From positions 119,262-183,261 of the forward strand of contig NZ_ML974134.1 in assembly GCF_004143485.2 (NCBI RefSeq): a DNA stretch of 64,000 nucleotides, in the 5' to 3' direction. Both the position numbers and the translations under genes were made by a program. Each line of letters begins with the position of its first letter. Position 1 is the first letter of the stretch. Positions 4,902 through 36,241 of this stretch are shown here, piece after piece. The stretch is from Halorussus amylolyticus. GTDB lineage: Archaea; Halobacteriota; Halobacteria; Halobacteriales; Haladaptataceae. The notes below the pieces were generated by a model. The model saw nothing but the letters and a program-made list of their open reading frames with translations. It had not been told where the DNA came from and made no database searches.

Positions 4902-6458
4902 ATGAGCGTAGCCGTCTATCTCGACGGAATAACCAAACGGTTCCCGGGCGTCGTCGCCAACGACGAGGTCGACCTCGAAGTCGAGGCCGGGACCGTCCAC
5001 GCCCTGCTCGGCGAGAACGGCGCGGGCAAGACCACGCTGATGAACGTGCTGTACGGTCTGTACCGCCCGAACGGGGGAACGATACATCTCAACGGGGAGC
5101 CACGCGAGTTCGCGACCCCGCGGGATGCAATCGACGCCGGAATCGGGATGATACACCAGCACTTCATGCTCGTAGACACCCTCACCACGGCCGAGAACAT
5201 CGTCCTCGGCCACGAACCCCGAAAGTGGGGCGGCCTCGCGGTGGACCGCGAGCGCGCCGAGCGCGAAGTTCGGGAACTCAGTCAGCGCTACGGCTTCGAC
5301 GTGGACCCCGAAGCCCGCGTCGAGGACGTGAGCGTGGGCGTCCAACAGCGCGTCGAGATTCTCAAGGCGCTGTACGGCGGTGCCGACGTGCTGATTCTCG
5401 ACGAACCGACCGCCGTCCTCACGCCCCAGGAGGTCGAGGACCTGTTCGGGGTGTTCGACGAACTCGCAGACCAGGGCAAGACGATTATCTTCATCACCCA
5501 CAAACTCGGCGAGGCGATGGAGGCCGCCGACGACATCACGGTGCTTCGGGACGGCAAGAACGTCGGGAGCGTGGACGCCGACGCGACGACCCGCGAGGAG
5601 CTCGCGGAGCTGATGGTGGGGCGCGAAGTCCTGCTCGAAGCTGACAAGGACCCCGCGAATCCCGGCGAGGTCGGACTCGCGGTGTCGGACCTCCGCGTGA
5701 CCGACGACCGCGGCGTCGAGCAGGTCAGCGGCGTGGACATCGAAGCCCGCGAGGGCGAGGTGTTCGGCATCGCGGGCGTGGACGGCAACGGCCAGTCCGA
5801 ACTCGTGGAGGCCGTCACCGGTCTCACGACGCCCGAGGAGGGACGCGTCTCGATTCACGGCGAGGACGTGACCGGGCTTTCCCGGCGCGACCGAATCGAC
5901 GACGGGATGGCCTACGTGCCCGAGGACCGACAGGAGCGCGGTCTCGTGATGGAGTTCGACCTCGTGGAGAACGGCCTGCTCGGGAGCCAGCACGCCCAAC
6001 CCTACGCCGAGGGCGGGCGCATCGACTGGACCGAGACTCGCGGCCACGCCGAAGCCATCATCGAGGAGTACGACGTGCGCCCGCCGGACCCGGACGCCGA
6101 CGCGAAATCACTGTCGGGCGGCAACCAACAGAAGTTCATCGTGGGCCGGGAGTTCGCTCGCGACCCCGACGTGGTGGTCGCCTCGCATCCGACTCGCGGG
6201 GTGGACGTGGGGTCCATCGAGTTCATCCACGACCGACTGCTCGACCTCCGCCGGGAGGGAAAGACCATCCTGCTCGTCTCCTCGAAACTCGACGAGGTCC
6301 AACAGCTCTCGGATAGGCTCGCGGTGATGTACGAGGGCGAAATCGTGGACATCGTGGACCCCGACCGCGTGACCGAGGAGGAACTCGGCCTGCTGATGGC
6401 CGGAGAGATACCCGAGGACGCGCCGAGCATCGCCGACTCCACGGGGGGTGAGCGATGA
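4902..6458 (+). CDS. Nucleoside/sugar ABC transporter ATPase, two NBDs (RbsA/NupO-like)
   Basis: A 518-residue fused double ATPase. NBD1 has Walker A GENGAGKTT (37-45), the Q-loop HQHFML, a signature-like VSVGVQQR and Walker B VLILDEPT. NBD2 has a degenerate Walker A (GVDGNGQSE), signature LSGGNQQKF and a Walker B-like VVVASHPTRGVD. This asymmetry is normal in the ribose/nucleoside (CUT2-type) importers that pair with BMP binding proteins. It starts after a TATA-like tatcttaag at 4868. The stop overlaps the next gene as ATGA at 6455-6458, so the transporter is translationally coupled. Confidence 0.93.
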   Translation: MSVAVYLDGITKRFPGVVANDEVDLEVEAGTVHALLGENGAGKTTLMNVLYGLYRPNGGTIHLNGEPREFATPRDAIDAGIGMIHQHFMLVDTLTTAENIVLGHEPRKWGGLAVDRERAEREVRELSQRYGFDVDPEARVEDVSVGVQQRVEILKALYGGADVLILDEPTAVLTPQEVEDLFGVFDELADQGKTIIFITHKLGEAMEAADDITVLRDGKNVGSVDADATTREELAELMVGREVLLEADKDPANPGEVGLAVSDLRVTDDRGVEQVSGVDIEAREGEVFGIAGVDGNGQSELVEAVTGLTTPEEGRVSIHGEDVTGLSRRDRIDDGMAYVPEDRQERGLVMEFDLVENGLLGSQHAQPYAEGGRIDWTETRGHAEAIIEEYDVRPPDPDADAKSLSGGNQQKFIVGREFARDPDVVVASHPTRGVDVGSIEFIHDRLLDLRREGKTILLVSSKLDEVQQLSDRLAVMYEGEIVDIVDPDRVTEEELGLLMAGEIPEDAPSIADSTGGER

Positions 6459-7783
6459 GCGATTCCGACCGCGACGAGTCGGGACCGGGACGAATCGGTC
6501 GCACGCTCGGGCGACTCGTGGACGCCTCGGCGGTCGAGCGCATCCTCATCAGTCTCGCCGCGCTCGCGCTGTCGGTCGTGGTCGGCGCGCTGGTCGTCCT
6601 CGTCTCGGGGTTCATCCTCTCGCCGTGCGCGTCGTCGCCGTTCCTGGCGACCGGCTTCGGCGACTTCTGTTACGACCCCCTCGAAGTGTACTGGGTGTTG
6701 CTTCAGGGCGCGTTCGGCTCGACGTTCAACCTCGCGATTACGCTGAAAGAGACCACCCTGCTCGTGTTCACCGGGCTGTCGGTCGCGGTCGCGTTCCGCG
6801 CCGGGATGTTCAACATCGGGACGCAGGGACAGCTCGTGCTGGGCGCGCTCGCGACCGGCCTCGCAGTGCTGTGGGTCGCGCCGTTCGTGCCCGCCGGACT
6901 CGTCGGCGGCGTCGTCCTGATGGGAGTCGGGCTGCTCGCCGGTGCGGTCGTCGGCGGCGTCTGGGGCGCGATTCCGGGCGCGCTAAAGGCCTACGCCGAC
7001 GCGAACGAGGTCATCACGACCATCATGCTCAACTTCGTCGCGACGGGGCTGGCGTTCACCCTCGTCTCGGAGGTGTTCAAAGACCCCGAGAGCCAGACGG
7101 TCCAGACGCGGTCGGTCCCCGGCAACGCGGAGTTCCCGCCGTCGCTCCTCGAAGTACAGGACTTCTCGATTTTCGTCCTCGTCGGCGCGATTCTCCTCGC
7201 GGTCGGCATCTTCTGGCTCCTCAGAGGCACCACGTTCGGCTACGACCTCCGGACCAGCGGCGAACAGCCCGAGGCCGCCGAGTACGGCGGCGTGGACTCG
7301 AAGCGAATGATGGTGTCGAGCATGGCGCTGTCGGGCGCGCTCGGCGGTATCGGCGGCGCGGTGTACGTGCTGATGGTCGCGGGCTACTGGCAGTCGGGCA
7401 TCCCGGACCTCGGTTTCGACGGCATCACCGTCTCGATTCTGGCGGGCAACAACCCCATCGGGGTGCTTCCCGCGGCGCTCCTGTTCGGCGCGCTCAAGGG
7501 CGGGAGCCTCGCCATCGAGTTCGACCTCGCGGTTCCGAAGGAACTGGTCGGCGTCCTCCGGGGGCTGGTCATCCTGTTCGTCGCCATGCCGGAGTTCTTC
7601 CGGATGATTGGCGCGCGGTACGGCTACGGCGGCGACGACTACGCGGTCGCCGCCGACGGGTCGGGCGCGGATGATGCGTCTGACGCCGACACCGACTCGG
7701 AACCCGACGACGCTTCCGAAACCGACGGTGAGACGAGCCAAATCGACGATTCGGGCCTCGAAGACGGAGGTGATGGCCGATGA
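6455..7783 (+). CDS. ABC transporter permease, BPD_transp_2 type, first subunit
   Basis: A 442-residue membrane protein with about ten hydrophobic segments between residues 25 and 390. It includes the TGLSVAVAFRAGMFNIGTQG and NEVITTIMLNFVATG segments typical of the BmpB/NupB permeases in nucleoside importers. The last 50 residues are a very acidic Asp/Ser/Thr/Glu tail, which is common in halophile cytoplasmic termini. It overlaps the ATPase and the next permease by ATGA at both ends. With its partner at 7780 it should form the membrane channel used by the two BMP proteins. Confidence 0.92.
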   Translation: MSDSDRDESGPGRIGRTLGRLVDASAVERILISLAALALSVVVGALVVLVSGFILSPCASSPFLATGFGDFCYDPLEVYWVLLQGAFGSTFNLAITLKETTLLVFTGLSVAVAFRAGMFNIGTQGQLVLGALATGLAVLWVAPFVPAGLVGGVVLMGVGLLAGAVVGGVWGAIPGALKAYADANEVITTIMLNFVATGLAFTLVSEVFKDPESQTVQTRSVPGNAEFPPSLLEVQDFSIFVLVGAILLAVGIFWLLRGTTFGYDLRTSGEQPEAAEYGGVDSKRMMVSSMALSGALGGIGGAVYVLMVAGYWQSGIPDLGFDGITVSILAGNNPIGVLPAALLFGALKGGSLAIEFDLAVPKELVGVLRGLVILFVAMPEFFRMIGARYGYGGDDYAVAADGSGADDASDADTDSEPDDASETDGETSQIDDSGLEDGGDGR

Positions 7784-8862
7784 GCTTCGGCCGACTCCCG
7801 ACCGACCGGCGACTGCTCGCCGGGGTCGCCGGTCTCGTCCTCGCGGCGCTCCTCGCGGTCGAGGTGCTGTTCCCCGCGAATCCGGTCACCGACGTCGGGG
7901 CCGTCCTCGTCACCATCGTCGCGGACGCCAACTACGTGAGTTCGGTGCTCCGGCTGACGGTTCCCATCGCGTTTGCGGCGCTCGGCGGTATCTTCGCCGA
8001 GAAGTCCGGCGTCATCAACATCGGACTCGAAGGCCTGCTCATCATCTCGGCGTTCACGTCGCTGGCGGCCGCCGCCGCGCTCGGCGGCGGCGACCCGAAC
8101 CAGACTCAGCTCTGGCTCGGGTTCGGCATCGCCGTGCTGGTGAGCACGCTGTTCGCGCTCCTGTTCGCAATCGTCTGCATCGAGTTCAAGGCCGACCAGA
8201 TTATCGCGGGCCTCGCGGTGTGGCTCATCGCGCTCGGTCTCGCACCGTTCGCCAGCAAGGTCATCTGGGGGCAGGTCAACAGCCCGACCATCGGTACGTT
8301 CAACAACTGGACGATTCCGGTCCTCTCGGAGATACCGTTCGTCGGTCCCGTGCTGTTCGACGCCAGCCCGATGGTCTACATGCTGCTCGTCGCGGTCGTC
8401 GCGTCGTGGTACGCCCTGAATCGAACGTCGTTCGGCCGGTGGATAGAGGCCTCCGGCGAGAACCCGAAGGCGCTCGACACCGTGGGCGTGGACGTGCGGC
8501 GGGTCCGGTACACCGGCGTCCTGCTTTCGGGATTCCTCTCGGGCATCGGCGGTGCGGGGCTGGCCATCGGTCGCGTCGGCCAGTTCATCGGCGGCGGGAC
8601 CACGATGGTCAACGGTCGGGGCTGGATAGGCATCACCGCGTACCTGTTCGGCAACTACAACCCCTTCGGCGCGTTCGGCGCGTCGTTCCTGTTCGCGAGC
8701 CTCGACGCGCTCCAGTTCCGCCTCCAGCAGGTCGGCTACAACATCCCGAGCGAACTCATCGGCATCATCCCCTACGTGACCGTGGTGGTCGTGCTGGCGT
8801 TCGTGGGCCGGACTCGGATTCCGTCTGCGGCGGGCGACCACTACGAGTCTGGCGAGGAGTAG
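7780..8862 (+). CDS. ABC transporter permease, BPD_transp_2 type, second subunit
   Basis: A 360-residue membrane protein with about nine or ten hydrophobic segments. The conserved FAALGGIFAEKSGVINIGLE and EFKADQIIAGLAVW stretches match the NupC-like second permease of nucleoside ABC importers. Glycine-rich motifs near the C-terminus (SGIGGAGLAIG) and a glycine/phenylalanine-rich loop (LFGNYNPFGAFGASF) fit the family. It is last in the coupled ATPase-permease-permease run. About 110 bp later the repeat element at 8973 begins. Confidence 0.92.
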   Translation: MSFGRLPTDRRLLAGVAGLVLAALLAVEVLFPANPVTDVGAVLVTIVADANYVSSVLRLTVPIAFAALGGIFAEKSGVINIGLEGLLIISAFTSLAAAAALGGGDPNQTQLWLGFGIAVLVSTLFALLFAIVCIEFKADQIIAGLAVWLIALGLAPFASKVIWGQVNSPTIGTFNNWTIPVLSEIPFVGPVLFDASPMVYMLLVAVVASWYALNRTSFGRWIEASGENPKALDTVGVDVRRVRYTGVLLSGFLSGIGGAGLAIGRVGQFIGGGTTMVNGRGWIGITAYLFGNYNPFGAFGASFLFASLDALQFRLQQVGYNIPSELIGIIPYVTVVVVLAFVGRTRIPSAAGDHYESGEE

Positions 8863-31294: not shown

Positions 31295-32995
31295 ATGTAC
31301 GACGACGACGACCTCGCGGCGATACGCGACGCGAAGGCCGAGTGGGAAGACGAGACTCTCGACCCGGTCCTCGACGCCTACGGCGAGCGCAAGGACAGCT
31401 TCGCGACCGTCTCGAATCTCGAAGTCGACCGGCTCTACACCCCCGACGACGTGGCCGATTTGGACTACGACGAGGATTTGGGCTTTCCCGGCGAGGACCC
31501 CTACACGCGCGGGGTCTACCCCACGATGTACCGCGGCCGAACGTGGACCATGCGCCAGTTCGCCGGGTTCGGCACGGCCGAGGAGACCAACGAGCGGTTT
31601 CACTATCTCACCGACGAGGGCCAGACCGGCCTCTCGACCGCGTTCGACATGCCGAGTCTCATGGGTAAGGATTCGGACGACCCGCTCTCGGACGGCGAGG
31701 TCGGCAAGGAAGGCGTGGCGGTAGACACCCTTCGGGACATGGAGATTCTGTTCGACGGCATCGACCTCGGCGAGGTCTCGACCTCTTTCACAATCAACCC
31801 CTCCGCGCCGGTCATCTACGCGATGTACATCGCGCTCGCCGACCAGCAGGGAGTTCCGCGCGAGGAGATTCGGGGCACTCTCCAGAACGACATGCTCAAG
31901 GAGTTCATCGCCCAGAAGGAGTGGGTCATCCCGCCCGAACCCAGCCTCGACATCGTGACCGACACCATCGAGTTCGCCAGCGAGGAGACGCCGAAGTTCA
32001 AGCCCATCTCGATTTCCGGGTATCACATCCGAGAGGCCGGTTCGACCGCGATTCAGGAACTCGCGTTCACCCTCGCGGACGGCTTCGCCTACGTCGAGGA
32101 CTGTCTCGACCGCGGGATGGACGTGGACGAGTTCGCCCCGCAACTCTCCTTCTTCTTCAACTCCCACAACTCCATCTTCGAGGAGGTCGCGAAGTTCCGC
32201 GCGGCCCGACGCATCTACGCGAACGTGATGGACGAGTGGTACGGCGCAGAGACCGAGGCGAGCAAACAGCTCAAGTTCCACACGCAGACCGCGGGCCAGA
32301 GCCTGACCGCCCAACAGCCCCTGAACAACGTCGTTCGAGTCACGATTCAGGCGCTCGCCGGAGTGCTGGGCGGCACCCAGAGCCTCCACACCAACAGCTT
32401 CGACGAGGCGCTCGCGCTCCCCTCCGAGAAGGCGGTCAGGGTGGCGCTCCGAACCCAGCAAATCATCGCCGAGGAGTCGGGCGCGGCCGACATCGCCGAC
32501 CCGCTCGGCGGGAGTTTCGCAATCGAGAGCCTGACCGACGAAGTCGAGGAGAAGGCGATGGCCTACATCGAGGAAATAAAAGGGATGGGTGACGGCTCGG
32601 TCCGCGACGGCGTCCTCGACGGCATCGAACAGGGCTACTTCCACCGCGAGATTCAGGACGCCTCCTACGAGTACCAAGAGCGCGTCGAGCGCGGCGAGGA
32701 GACCGTCGTCGGCGTCAACGAGTACCAAATCGAGGAGGACACCAAACCCGAAATCCTCCACGTGGACGAAGACACCCAGCGAAAACAGCTCGACCGCCTC
32801 GCAGAAGTGAAAGCCGAGCGCGACGACGCCGCGGTCGAGTCGGCGCTCGACGACCTCCGGGACGCCATCGAGTCCGACGAGAACGTGATGCCGTCCATCG
32901 TGGACGCGGTGAAGGCGTACGCCACGATGGGCGAGATTATGCAGGTGTTCGAGGCCGAGTACGGGAGCTATCAGGAAACGGTGAGCGTGGCGTAG
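31295..32995 (+). CDS. Methylmalonyl-CoA mutase, large (catalytic) subunit
   Basis: A 566-residue TIM-barrel domain that interconverts (R)-methylmalonyl-CoA and succinyl-CoA with B12. Visible are RGVYPTMYRGRTWTMRQFAG, GLSTAFDMPSLMGKD, the acyl-CoA region ISISGYHIREAGSTAIQELA and the family stretch GGTQSLHTNSFDEALALP. It stops before the B12-binding domain, which in archaea is a separate small subunit and is not in this window. The gene is monocistronic. It would serve propionate/odd-chain or branched amino-acid catabolism; ethylmalonyl-type mutases cannot be fully excluded. Confidence 0.92.
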   Translation: MYDDDDLAAIRDAKAEWEDETLDPVLDAYGERKDSFATVSNLEVDRLYTPDDVADLDYDEDLGFPGEDPYTRGVYPTMYRGRTWTMRQFAGFGTAEETNERFHYLTDEGQTGLSTAFDMPSLMGKDSDDPLSDGEVGKEGVAVDTLRDMEILFDGIDLGEVSTSFTINPSAPVIYAMYIALADQQGVPREEIRGTLQNDMLKEFIAQKEWVIPPEPSLDIVTDTIEFASEETPKFKPISISGYHIREAGSTAIQELAFTLADGFAYVEDCLDRGMDVDEFAPQLSFFFNSHNSIFEEVAKFRAARRIYANVMDEWYGAETEASKQLKFHTQTAGQSLTAQQPLNNVVRVTIQALAGVLGGTQSLHTNSFDEALALPSEKAVRVALRTQQIIAEESGAADIADPLGGSFAIESLTDEVEEKAMAYIEEIKGMGDGSVRDGVLDGIEQGYFHREIQDASYEYQERVERGEETVVGVNEYQIEEDTKPEILHVDEDTQRKQLDRLAEVKAERDDAAVESALDDLRDAIESDENVMPSIVDAVKAYATMGEIMQVFEAEYGSYQETVSVA

Positions 32996-33180
32996 GCGGT
33001 CTACTAGCGACTTGACTCCTTGTGGTGCTGTCGTCGGACGTGAGTCTCGGTCCCGAACCATCCGAATCTCGGGATGGCTCCCGGACTCCGAGGACCGTTT
33101 TCACCTCCGAGCCGCCGGTGTTCGCCGGAACGCGCTTGTTATTTTAACTACGGCAGTAATTCTTACTTAGGCTAGAAAAA

Positions 33181-33190
33181 TTATATTAAA
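33181..33190 (+). promoter_or_regulatory. TATA box for the secreted amidase
   Basis: ttatattaaa, in a locally A/T-rich stretch (33135-33190), sits about 30 bases upstream of the ATG at 33216. It is among the strongest-looking promoters in the window. Confidence 0.6.
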
Positions 33191-33215: not shown

Positions 33216-33818
33216 ATGCAATCCAGACGAGACGTACTGAAGAAGCTCGGTGCAGCAAGTACAGCAGGACTCGCAGGGACGGCAGCCCTGTCGGGGTCCG
33301 CCGCGGCAGGCATGCCGGGGGTCGACTGGAAGCCAGCCGACTCCAGCAACTACACGAGTGCGGACCGTGGTGCGAGCGAGATTAACTGGATCATCATCCA
33401 CACGGTGCAAGGGTCGGCCAGCGGCGCGGTCAGCTGGTTCCAGAATCCCGACGCCGACGTGAGCGCCCACTTCACCACTGCCGAGGACGGCTACCTCTAC
33501 CAGAGTCTCTCCGAGGTCAACATCGGCTGGCACGCTGGCAACGGGAGCTACAACGATACCTCCGTCGGCATCGAAAACGGCGGCTACGTCAGCGAACCCT
33601 ACCCGGACGCCCAGTACCAAAAGACGGCCGACCTTGTCGCCTACCTCTGTGAGCAGTACAACATCCCGAAAGAGCGCGCCACCTGGGTACCCGAGAACGC
33701 GTGGGACAACACCACCGGCGGCATCATCGGCCACGACCAGGTCCCGGGTAGCACCCACACCGACCCCGGCGACAACTGGGACTGGAACCACTTCATCGAC
33801 CTCGTCAACTCCTACTGA
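33216..33818 (+). CDS. Secreted N-acetylmuramoyl-L-alanine amidase-like protein (Amidase_2/PGRP fold)
   Basis: A 200-residue precursor. A Tat signal (QSRRDVLKKLG then an Ala/Gly/Ser-rich stretch ending near SAAAG, residue 32) is followed by a compact Amidase_2 domain. Zinc and catalytic residues of the AmpD/PGRP family are in place: H62 (IIIHTV), E120 (VGIENGG), H173 (IGHDQV) and D183 (HTDPGD). The family cleaves the bond between muramic acid and the L-Ala of peptidoglycan. Haloarchaea have no murein, so the target is most likely bacterial wall material. It is monogenic with its own promoter and a hairpin terminator at 33835; no immunity gene is visible. Confidence 0.88.
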   Translation: MQSRRDVLKKLGAASTAGLAGTAALSGSAAAGMPGVDWKPADSSNYTSADRGASEINWIIIHTVQGSASGAVSWFQNPDADVSAHFTTAEDGYLYQSLSEVNIGWHAGNGSYNDTSVGIENGGYVSEPYPDAQYQKTADLVAYLCEQYNIPKERATWVPENAWDNTTGGIIGHDQVPGSTHTDPGDNWDWNHFIDLVNSY

Positions 33819-33834
33819 ACGGACGACTGACCGC

Positions 33835-33858
33835 GCCGACGGTTCGAGTCGGCGTTTT
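33835..33858 (+). terminator. Hairpin terminator after amidase gene
   Basis: gccgac (33835-33840) and gtcggc (33848-33853) pair around ggttcga and are followed by gtttt, 17 bases after the stop codon. Confidence 0.5.
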
Positions 33859-34230
33859 CGGTGAACGGAAACCGAACGCTGTGCAAATTTCTTCCGGTCG
33901 CACTCGTCAGCATCGGCACGGAGTACACCGTTCAGCACTACGACCTCGTAGTCTCGCCATTTCCGCCACGGTGACAATCGGCGCAGGCGTGAGGTATCTC
34001 ACGCGGGTCGTAATTCTGAACACGGTCACCGTCGAATCTTGTCGATGTGGTGTTCGTCATCCATCACCTGTTCGTGAACGGTCCGGCCGATGCACACCAC
34101 ACCCCTCCCGACGGAGTGGACGCTAAAGTGACGACCCCTCACTCGGCAGTCACGTAACCCCCGATTACCGACCTCTCCGACGCCGAACGCCCCGCCACCC
34201 CCGACTTGCGGTGTGCTACAACTCGGCAAG

Positions 34231-34250
34231 CTTTATTGCTCCGCTTAATG
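34231..34250 (+). promoter_or_regulatory. Promoter of acetyl-CoA synthetase gene
   Basis: Two A/T boxes, ctttattg (34231-34238) and gcttaatg (34243-34250), precede the ATG at 34268. The second, ending 17 bases upstream, is at a distance for a nearly leaderless mRNA. The in-frame ATG at 34211 lies upstream of both and is rejected. Confidence 0.45.
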
Positions 34251-34267
34251 AGTATAAGAACGAACTT

Positions 34268-36241
34268 ATGTCCGACGACACAGTCGAACTCGAAGCACGG
34301 CTCGAAGAACAGGAAGCGTTCGAGCCGCCCGAGGAGTTCGTCGAACAGGCGAACGTCTCCGACGCCTCGATTTACGAGGAGTTCGAGGAGAACTGGCCGG
34401 AGTGTTGGGAGCAGGCCGCCGACCTCCTGACGTGGGAGGAGGAGTACGACGCCGTCCTCGACGATAGTGACGCCCCGTTCTACGAGTGGTTCACCGACGG
34501 GAAGCTGAACGCCTCGGCGAACTGTCTCGACCGACACCTCGACGACCGGGGCGACGAGGTCGCAATCGACTGGATAGGCGAGAAGGGCGAGACGCGCACG
34601 TACACATACGGGGACCTCCACCGTGAGGTCAACGAGTTCGCCGCGGCGCTCCGCGAGTTGGGCGTCGAGGAGGACGACGTGGTGACGATGTACATGCCGA
34701 TGATTCCGGAGCTTCCGGTCGCGATGCTCGCGTGCGCTCGCATCGGCGCGCCCCACAGCGTGGTGTTCGCTGGCTTCTCGGCTGAGGCGTTAGCGACCCG
34801 GATGGAGAGCGCGGATTCGGAGTACCTCGTAACGTGCGACGGCTACTACCGCCGGGGCGACCTCCTCAAGCACAAGGAGAAGACCGACGAGGGTCTCGCG
34901 CAGGTCGGCCACGACGTTTCAGACGTGGTGGTCGTAGACCGCGGCGGCGACGAGTACGACCACGACCTCGCGGACAACGAACACGACTACGGCGACCTCG
35001 TCGCCGAGCAGGAGGGCGCGGAGGTCGAACCGGTCACGCGCGACGCCGAGGACATGCTGTTCCTGATGTACACCTCGGGCACGACCGGCGAGCCGAAGGG
35101 CGTCAAGCACACGACCGGGGGCTACCTCTCGTACGTCTCGTGGACCAGTCAGGCCGTTCTCGACATCAAGCCCGACGACACCTACTGGTGTTCGGCCGAC
35201 ATCGGCTGGATTACCGGCCACTCGTACATCGTCTACGGACCGCTCGCGCTCGGCACGACCAGCGTGATGTACGAGGGCACGCCCGATTACCCCGAGCGCG
35301 ACCGCCTCTGGGAAATCGTCGAGGAGTACGGCGTGGACATCTTCTACACCGCACCGACCGCGATTCGGGCGTTCATGAAGTGGGGCACGGAGTACCCCGA
35401 CGGACACGACCTCTCCAGCCTCCGCCTGCTCGGCACCGTGGGCGAACCCATCAATCCCCGCGCGTGGAAGTGGTACTACAAGCACATCGGCGACGAGTCG
35501 TGCCCCATCGTGGACACGTGGTGGCAGACCGAGACTGGCGGCATGATGGTCACGACCCTGCCGGGCGTCGGCACGATGAAGCCCGGAAGCGCGGGCCCGC
35601 CCCTCCCCGGAATCGACGCCAAAATCGTGGACACGAAGGGTGACGAGGTCGAGGCCGGACGCGCGGGCTACCTCACGGTGAACAAGCCGTGGCCGGGCAT
35701 GCTCCGGACCGTGTACAAGAACGACGACCGGTACATCTCCGAGTACTGGGAAGAGTACTCCGACTCCGACGCGGACGAGTGGGTGTACTTCCCCGAGGAC
35801 GGCGCGAAGATAGACGACGACGGCTACATCACCGTCCTCGGACGCGTGGACGACGTGCTCAACGTCTCGGGCCACCGCCTCGGAACGATGGAAATCGAAT
35901 CGGCCATCGTCGGCGTCGAGGGCGTCGCCGAGGCCGCGGTCGTCGGCGGGAACCACCCCGTGAAGGGCGAGGCGGTGTACGCCTACGTCATCACCGAGGA
36001 GGGTCAAGGCGAGGACGACGCGATGCGCGACCGCATCGTCGCGGGCGTCGAGGACGCCATCGGCCCAATCGCGCGACCCGAGCAGGTCGTCTTCACCCCC
36101 GAACTCCCGAAGACTCGCTCCGGGAAAATCATGCGCCGCCTGCTCGAAGACATCGCCAACGAGGAGGAACTCGGCGACACCTCGACCCTTCGAAACCCCG
36201 ACGTCGTCGCGGACATTCAGGCGAAGGTCGGCGACGACTGA
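34268..36241 (+). CDS. acs: Acetyl-CoA synthetase (AMP-forming)
   Basis: A 657-residue acyl-adenylate enzyme of normal Acs length that activates acetate with ATP and CoA. Motifs are YTSGTTGEPKGV (P-loop, about 267), TWWQTETGG (acetyl-CoA-type A5), GRVDDVLNVSGHRLGTMEIE (A8 hinge) and TRSGKIMRRLL (catalytic Lys near 619). Tryptophan in the acyl pocket region (DTWWQTE) favours acetate or propionate over longer acids. It stands alone before the rhodanese-MBL gene, 52 bases apart on the same strand. No acetyltransferase partner is next to it. Confidence 0.94.
   Translation: MSDDTVELEARLEEQEAFEPPEEFVEQANVSDASIYEEFEENWPECWEQAADLLTWEEEYDAVLDDSDAPFYEWFTDGKLNASANCLDRHLDDRGDEVAIDWIGEKGETRTYTYGDLHREVNEFAAALRELGVEEDDVVTMYMPMIPELPVAMLACARIGAPHSVVFAGFSAEALATRMESADSEYLVTCDGYYRRGDLLKHKEKTDEGLAQVGHDVSDVVVVDRGGDEYDHDLADNEHDYGDLVAEQEGAEVEPVTRDAEDMLFLMYTSGTTGEPKGVKHTTGGYLSYVSWTSQAVLDIKPDDTYWCSADIGWITGHSYIVYGPLALGTTSVMYEGTPDYPERDRLWEIVEEYGVDIFYTAPTAIRAFMKWGTEYPDGHDLSSLRLLGTVGEPINPRAWKWYYKHIGDESCPIVDTWWQTETGGMMVTTLPGVGTMKPGSAGPPLPGIDAKIVDTKGDEVEAGRAGYLTVNKPWPGMLRTVYKNDDRYISEYWEEYSDSDADEWVYFPEDGAKIDDDGYITVLGRVDDVLNVSGHRLGTMEIESAIVGVEGVAEAAVVGGNHPVKGEAVYAYVITEEGQGEDDAMRDRIVAGVEDAIGPIARPEQVVFTPELPKTRSGKIMRRLLEDIANEEELGDTSTLRNPDVVADIQAKVGDD

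Follow-up and report, generated by a model that had tools for sequence, protein, structure and literature searches.

A stand-alone Tat-signal amidase of Halorussus amylolyticus that may open bacterial cell walls as food

The window, a stretch of 64,000 nucleotides from Halorussus amylolyticus, carries a gene (33216..33818, + strand) for a stand-alone Amidase_2 protein with a twin-arginine (Tat) signal, in a group of organisms, the halophilic archaea, that to our knowledge has no peptidoglycan of its own. We propose, with a probability of roughly 0.55, that this amidase, exported by the Tat route, cuts the stem peptides of bacterial peptidoglycan outside the cell, and that its main use is to open the wall as food. 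The first-pass annotation had offered either an antibacterial weapon or feeding. Both roles are sensible, but feeding is better supported than a weapon, since relatives of the amidase lie inside NamZ-bearing or AnmK-bearing gene clusters in other genomes and the H. amylolyticus genome itself encodes a NamZ/NagZ/AnmK/Opp cluster. Feeding and killing are nevertheless compatible and not exclusive. The earlier remark that no immunity gene would be required is logical, but it does not discriminate between the two.

The open reading frame starts with an ATG at 33216, ends with a stop codon at 33816-33818 and encodes 200 aa. Residues 54–186 match the Pfam Amidase_2 profile (PF01510) over positions 3–131 of 131, scoring 111.8 bits (cut-off 26; E 3.7e-32). 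This is the sole domain that Pfam detects in the protein, and the same domain search returned no wall-binding domain. The closest solved structures in a sequence search are AmpD, XlyA and AmpDh2, all of them N-acetylmuramoyl-L-alanine amidases. An AlphaFold model of low confidence (pLDDT 57.7, built from 6 sequences) has AmpD as its first PDB match, followed by endolysin amidases, with TM scores of 0.41–0.45. The His/His/(Asp or Cys) zinc ligands and the catalytic Glu that define PF01510 amidases are present. In an alignment of 68 rows (the window amidase and 67 relatives), the predicted zinc ligands H62 (33399..33401, + strand) and H173 (33732..33734, + strand) are His in 67/68 rows each, the predicted third ligand D183 (33762..33764, + strand) is Asp in 53 and Cys in 15, and the predicted catalytic E120 (33573..33575, + strand) is Glu in all 68. 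As the first-pass annotation had claimed, these four residues are thus intact, and, the Cys variant at 183 aside, they are near-invariant among the relatives.

At the N terminus, residues ~1–32 (33216..33311, + strand) form a Tat-type signal, MQSRRDVLKK...SGSAAAG, in which a twin-arginine motif (SRRDVLKK), a hydrophobic stretch and an AxA cleavage site (within AAAG, its position predicted) can be recognised. The TIGR01409 score is marginal, at 17.8 bits against a cut-off of 16.7, and the RR pair is unchanged across six aligned relatives. Altogether, the sequence supports the assignment of the window gene to the exported zinc amidases of the N-acetylmuramoyl-L-alanine amidase family, with an activity predicted from family membership. 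AmpD is a cytoplasmic enzyme that recycles the cell's own murein. It shares with the window amidase, as does XlyA (PDB 1j3g and 3hmb, respectively), the PF01510 domain, the His/His/Asp ligands and the catalytic Glu, whereas the window amidase is archaeal, bears a Tat signal and has His in place of Lys at position 181, two residues before the Asp ligand. Such a substitution would suit an enzyme acting on something other than peptidoglycan, for instance a GlcNAc polymer, a peptide or a surface glycan, whether from archaea or from the environment. We consider this very improbable, since the whole Amidase_2 profile is matched with a strong score. His181 is found in most relatives and is therefore a family trait, with no sign of decay.

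The gene appears to be transcribed on its own. A BRE and TATA box (GAAAAATTATATTA, 33175..33188, + strand) lies ~31 nt before the ATG, a spacing that fits a leaderless archaeal transcript, and the same element (GAAAAnTTATATTA) recurs ~31 nt 5' of the ATG at the orthologous sites of other Halorussus genomes, in intergenic regions that have otherwise largely diverged. This conservation upholds the earlier claim of an own A/T-rich promoter. A scan for sigma-70 promoters gave no match, as expected for an archaeal host. The claim of an own terminator is plausible at most: a GC hairpin followed by TTTT is present 3' of the stop codon (33833..33859, + strand) and may act as a terminator, but its fold z is only -1.85 against shuffled sequences, which is weak, and a terminator scan requiring at least five T made no call there.

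In at least eight Halorussus genomes (at least seven besides H. amylolyticus) the amidase adjoins mcmA, a methylmalonyl-CoA mutase large-subunit-like gene (31295..32995, + strand), and mostly lies ahead of acs, an acetyl-CoA-synthetase-like gene (34211..36241, + strand); in genome G009 it follows mcmA, but no acs is found within the stretch read. Both neighbours are named by resemblance and serve here as synteny markers with no functional part. We regard the amidase as a long-standing resident of Halorussus at this fixed site rather than a fresh acquisition. Among the six mcmA-acs-site orthologues compared, dN/dS is 0.16–0.34 and the window amidase is under purifying selection; together with the intact residues and the conserved promoter, this rules out a decaying gene in H. 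amylolyticus. The H. litoreus orthologue at the same site (5990-6610 of its locus) is frameshifted by a single additional base close to codon 58, possibly through an assembly error, since that genome is a draft. Base composition, considered as a sign of transfer, was uninformative: GC and GC3 are 0.632 and 0.83 for the amidase gene, and ~0.64 and 0.88 for its neighbours.

The wider family is patchily distributed. An Amidase_2 match of any kind was found in 50/392 genomes of the class, and the short form, judged from open-frame length, in 12. In the tree, the stand-alone haloarchaeal amidases form a clade of 23 rows (support 99/98), within which the mcmA-acs-site lineage is sister to a lineage that takes in the copies on plasmids and in clusters. 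Another group of short forms lies outside this clade. The nearest bacterial relatives that we found belong to Actinomycetota, at 42–48% identity to the window amidase. The bacterial rows all came from collections of plasmids and phages (Streptomyces, Streptantibioticus, Nonomuraea, Burkholderia and two phages) and the deep branches are unsettled, so that an actinomycete origin is no more than a lead. The actinomycete short amidases, such as the plasmid-borne ones of Streptomyces sp. NBC_01324 and NBC_00316, are 40–48% identical and have the same short architecture in several cases, although their hosts, unlike Halorussus, have murein of their own. On the NBC_00316 plasmid (2013-3573 of the locus) the amidase relative adjoins a GH25 lysozyme gene. 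A recent viral transfer was rejected as the near source: a single-sequence search of IMG/VR gave no relative, an alignment search gave one distant match at 32%, and phage matches reach only ~30–34% identity.

A link to feeding comes from the gene neighbourhoods of the relatives. Across 392 haloarchaeal genomes we found AnmK in 15 and NamZ in 16, in several families, and all 15 genomes with AnmK also have NamZ. A relative of the amidase sits inside such a cluster in H. aquaticus, H. limi, H. vallis (G017) and a genome of another family (G099), and those of the three Halorussus species are 62–65% identical to the window amidase. H. aquaticus has five co-directional genes in the order amidase, serine hydrolase, glycoside hydrolase, NamZ and NagZ, separated by gaps of 152, 110, 123 and 6 bp; gene order is the same in H. 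limi and H. vallis, with the amidase first, and the cluster-borne amidase is apparently the first gene of an operon. In G099 the amidase lies directly upstream of an SDR gene and AnmK, in the same direction. Over the 392 genomes of the class, AnmK is present in 7/12 genomes with the short amidase and in 8/380 of the others (Fisher 1.7e-8, a value that ignores kinship). In H. amylolyticus and in G005, G014, G018 and G297, a cluster without the amidase is found and the amidase is elsewhere in the genome. That the H. amylolyticus gene lies outside its cluster, and that genes at the mcmA-acs site and cluster-borne genes fall into different lineages of the tree, counts against the feeding reading.

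The H. amylolyticus cluster spans ~28 kb of contig C5 (about 169331-196900), while the window amidase is on contig C6. It encodes an IclR regulator, a creatininase-family protein, NagZ, NamZ, a luciferase-like monooxygenase, a putative glycoside hydrolase, an enolase-superfamily protein, a PF00144 serine hydrolase, a HAD phosphatase, a GNAT protein, a PIG-L deacetylase, an Opp-type ABC transporter with its solute-binding protein, an AnmK-family kinase and a Tat-signal GH18 protein. The enolase-superfamily protein resembles L-Ala-D/L-Glu epimerases, though below threshold. NamZ, NagZ and the kinase are encoded within ~20 kb and all three score above curated cut-offs: NamZ with both its N and C domains (PF07075 and PF20732), NagZ with 212.5 against 207 for NF003740 and the motif KHFPGHGDTDTDSH (KHFPGHG....DSH), and the kinase with 450 against 387 for NF007148. 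No signal peptide is evident in NamZ, NagZ or the serine hydrolase; all three therefore probably work intracellularly, on imported material. Judged by its gene content, the cluster looks like a muropeptide utilisation locus. The Bacillus subtilis genes for muropeptide rescue are namZ, nagZ and amiE, and the cluster resembles them in encoding NamZ, NagZ and a PF00144 serine hydrolase together; it differs in that these three proteins have no evident signal peptides, that an AnmK-family kinase is present and that MurQ, the MurNAc-6-phosphate etherase, was not found. None of the 28 family genomes, H. amylolyticus included, has a match above the TIGR00274 cut-off for MurQ. In bacteria, this enzyme converts MurNAc-6P to GlcNAc-6P and lactate (PMC6262408). 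In a search of the mainly open-access literature, we found no paper on a haloarchaeal NamZ/NagZ/AnmK cluster.

Some of the cluster enzymes have near relatives acting on other sugars, which again bears on a substrate other than peptidoglycan. The kinase is closer to levoglucosan kinases (275 bits) than to solved AnmKs (209 bits) and the closest solved relative of NagZ is a GH3 N-acetylglucosaminidase, so that the cluster might also serve other sugars. On the other side, NamZ and AnmK belong to families whose definition rests on muramic acid, and the H. amylolyticus genome encodes a further Amidase_2 protein, on contig C3 (1003-2136 of its locus, - strand), which combines a Tat signal with two PG_binding_1 domains. 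The first-pass annotation had mentioned the solitary position of the window gene; this is true locally, but not of the genome, which holds both the modular amidase on C3 and the cluster on C5.

As a weapon, the amidase would mainly lyse live competitor bacteria and feeding would be secondary. Strock et al. (2025) reported that about 5% of archaeal genomes encode peptidoglycan hydrolases (PGHs), and described two from Halogranum salarium B-1, Woldo and Danwoldo, with killing of a halophilic bacterium (PMC12352652). Their survey covered modular enzymes only and deliberately excluded stand-alone catalytic domains (PMC12352652). Under the modular definition, a catalytic plus a wall-binding domain, the C3 paralogue qualifies as an archaeal PGH and the window amidase does not. 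All of these are PGH-family haloarchaeal proteins and Woldo likewise carries a Tat signal, but Woldo, the proven killer, combines an M23 peptidase domain with two PG_binding_1 domains, whereas the window protein is a lone Amidase_2 domain. The C3 paralogue, which shares the PG_binding_1 tail, is closer to Woldo-type PGHs than the window amidase is, and its tail is related to NCBIfam models of Halogranum peptidoglycan hydrolases, below their cut-offs (NF052335, 203 bits against 500). The killing of a halophilic bacterium by haloarchaeal enzymes speaks for a weapon, as do the patchy distribution of Amidase_2 across the class and the several Halorussus that keep the amidase although they lack the catabolic cluster. 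Nonetheless, the window protein has no wall-binding domain, the stable vertical inheritance of the gene at one chromosomal site is unlike the turnover of an arms race, and the genes with which it is associated in genomes are those of uptake and catabolism. We consider a weapon as the main role rather unlikely.

Genomes that have the amidase and lack the cluster also raise the possibility that only the peptides matter, with stem peptides freed from debris for general oligopeptide uptake and the sugar cluster separate and optional. A stand-alone amidase is found in 7/13 family genomes without NamZ or AnmK, one of the seven being frameshifted. On a plasmid of G016 (C6:62001-79000, at 7836-8504) the amidase has kept its upstream 45 bp with the promoter, with no cluster on either side. 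As this copy nests among cluster-borne ones in the tree, the cluster was probably lost rather than originally absent, and the amidase would then be useful without sugar catabolism. The consistent lack of a MurQ match points the same way. All of this, together with the likeness of cluster enzymes to those for other sugars, also counts against our preferred reading. However, the cluster-borne copies lie directly in line with NamZ/NagZ or AnmK, and the amidase co-occurs with AnmK above chance, with the caveat on kinship given above, which makes scavenging of peptides alone a distinctly improbable account. That the amidase persists where the cluster is missing argues for a benefit from peptides alone or from killing.

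In the feeding reading that we prefer, the source would be dead or dying bacterial cells, possibly live ones. The amidase would be exported via Tat, as its signal suggests, and its Zn/Glu site, seen in the residues, would hydrolyse the bond between MurNAc and L-Ala, with the exported modular amidase on C3 and its two PG_binding_1 domains and the Tat-signal GH18 on C5 as likely helpers. The Opp-type ABC transporter, whose genes are present, could then import peptides and muropeptides as its presumed substrates. Inside the cell, NamZ, NagZ and the PF00144 serine hydrolase would trim these compounds and the AnmK-family kinase would phosphorylate the product, the genes being observed and the activities predicted. 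The products would enter central metabolism by a route without an identified MurQ. An uptake step of this kind agrees with the observation of Strock et al. (2025) that the OppBCDF-MppA uptake set is commoner in archaeal genomes bearing PGHs (PMC12352652).

The same study left open whether such enzymes serve feeding or competition, and whether they act on live bacteria or debris (PMC12352652). Since archaeal antibacterial PGHs have already been published, our additions are the stand-alone form and, more importantly, the utilisation-like cluster. Tentatively, and at somewhat less than even odds, we suggest that some haloarchaea, H. amylolyticus among them, live partly on bacterial walls by means of exported amidases, Opp import and NamZ/NagZ/AnmK-family processing; a non-MurQ enzyme, probably encoded in the cluster, would then break the lactyl ether of MurNAc. 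Candidates for this step are unassigned cluster proteins, such as the SDR, the HAD and enolase-superfamily proteins and a hypothetical protein of 332 aa (C5:195204-196202). Halorussus species that carry the amidase inside the cluster, outside it or without it make the question of whether they compete or eat testable in culturable strains. If the proposal is true, haloarchaea would be consumers of the bacterial wall, and the cluster would suggest that the muramic acid ether can be cleaved in a way not yet described.
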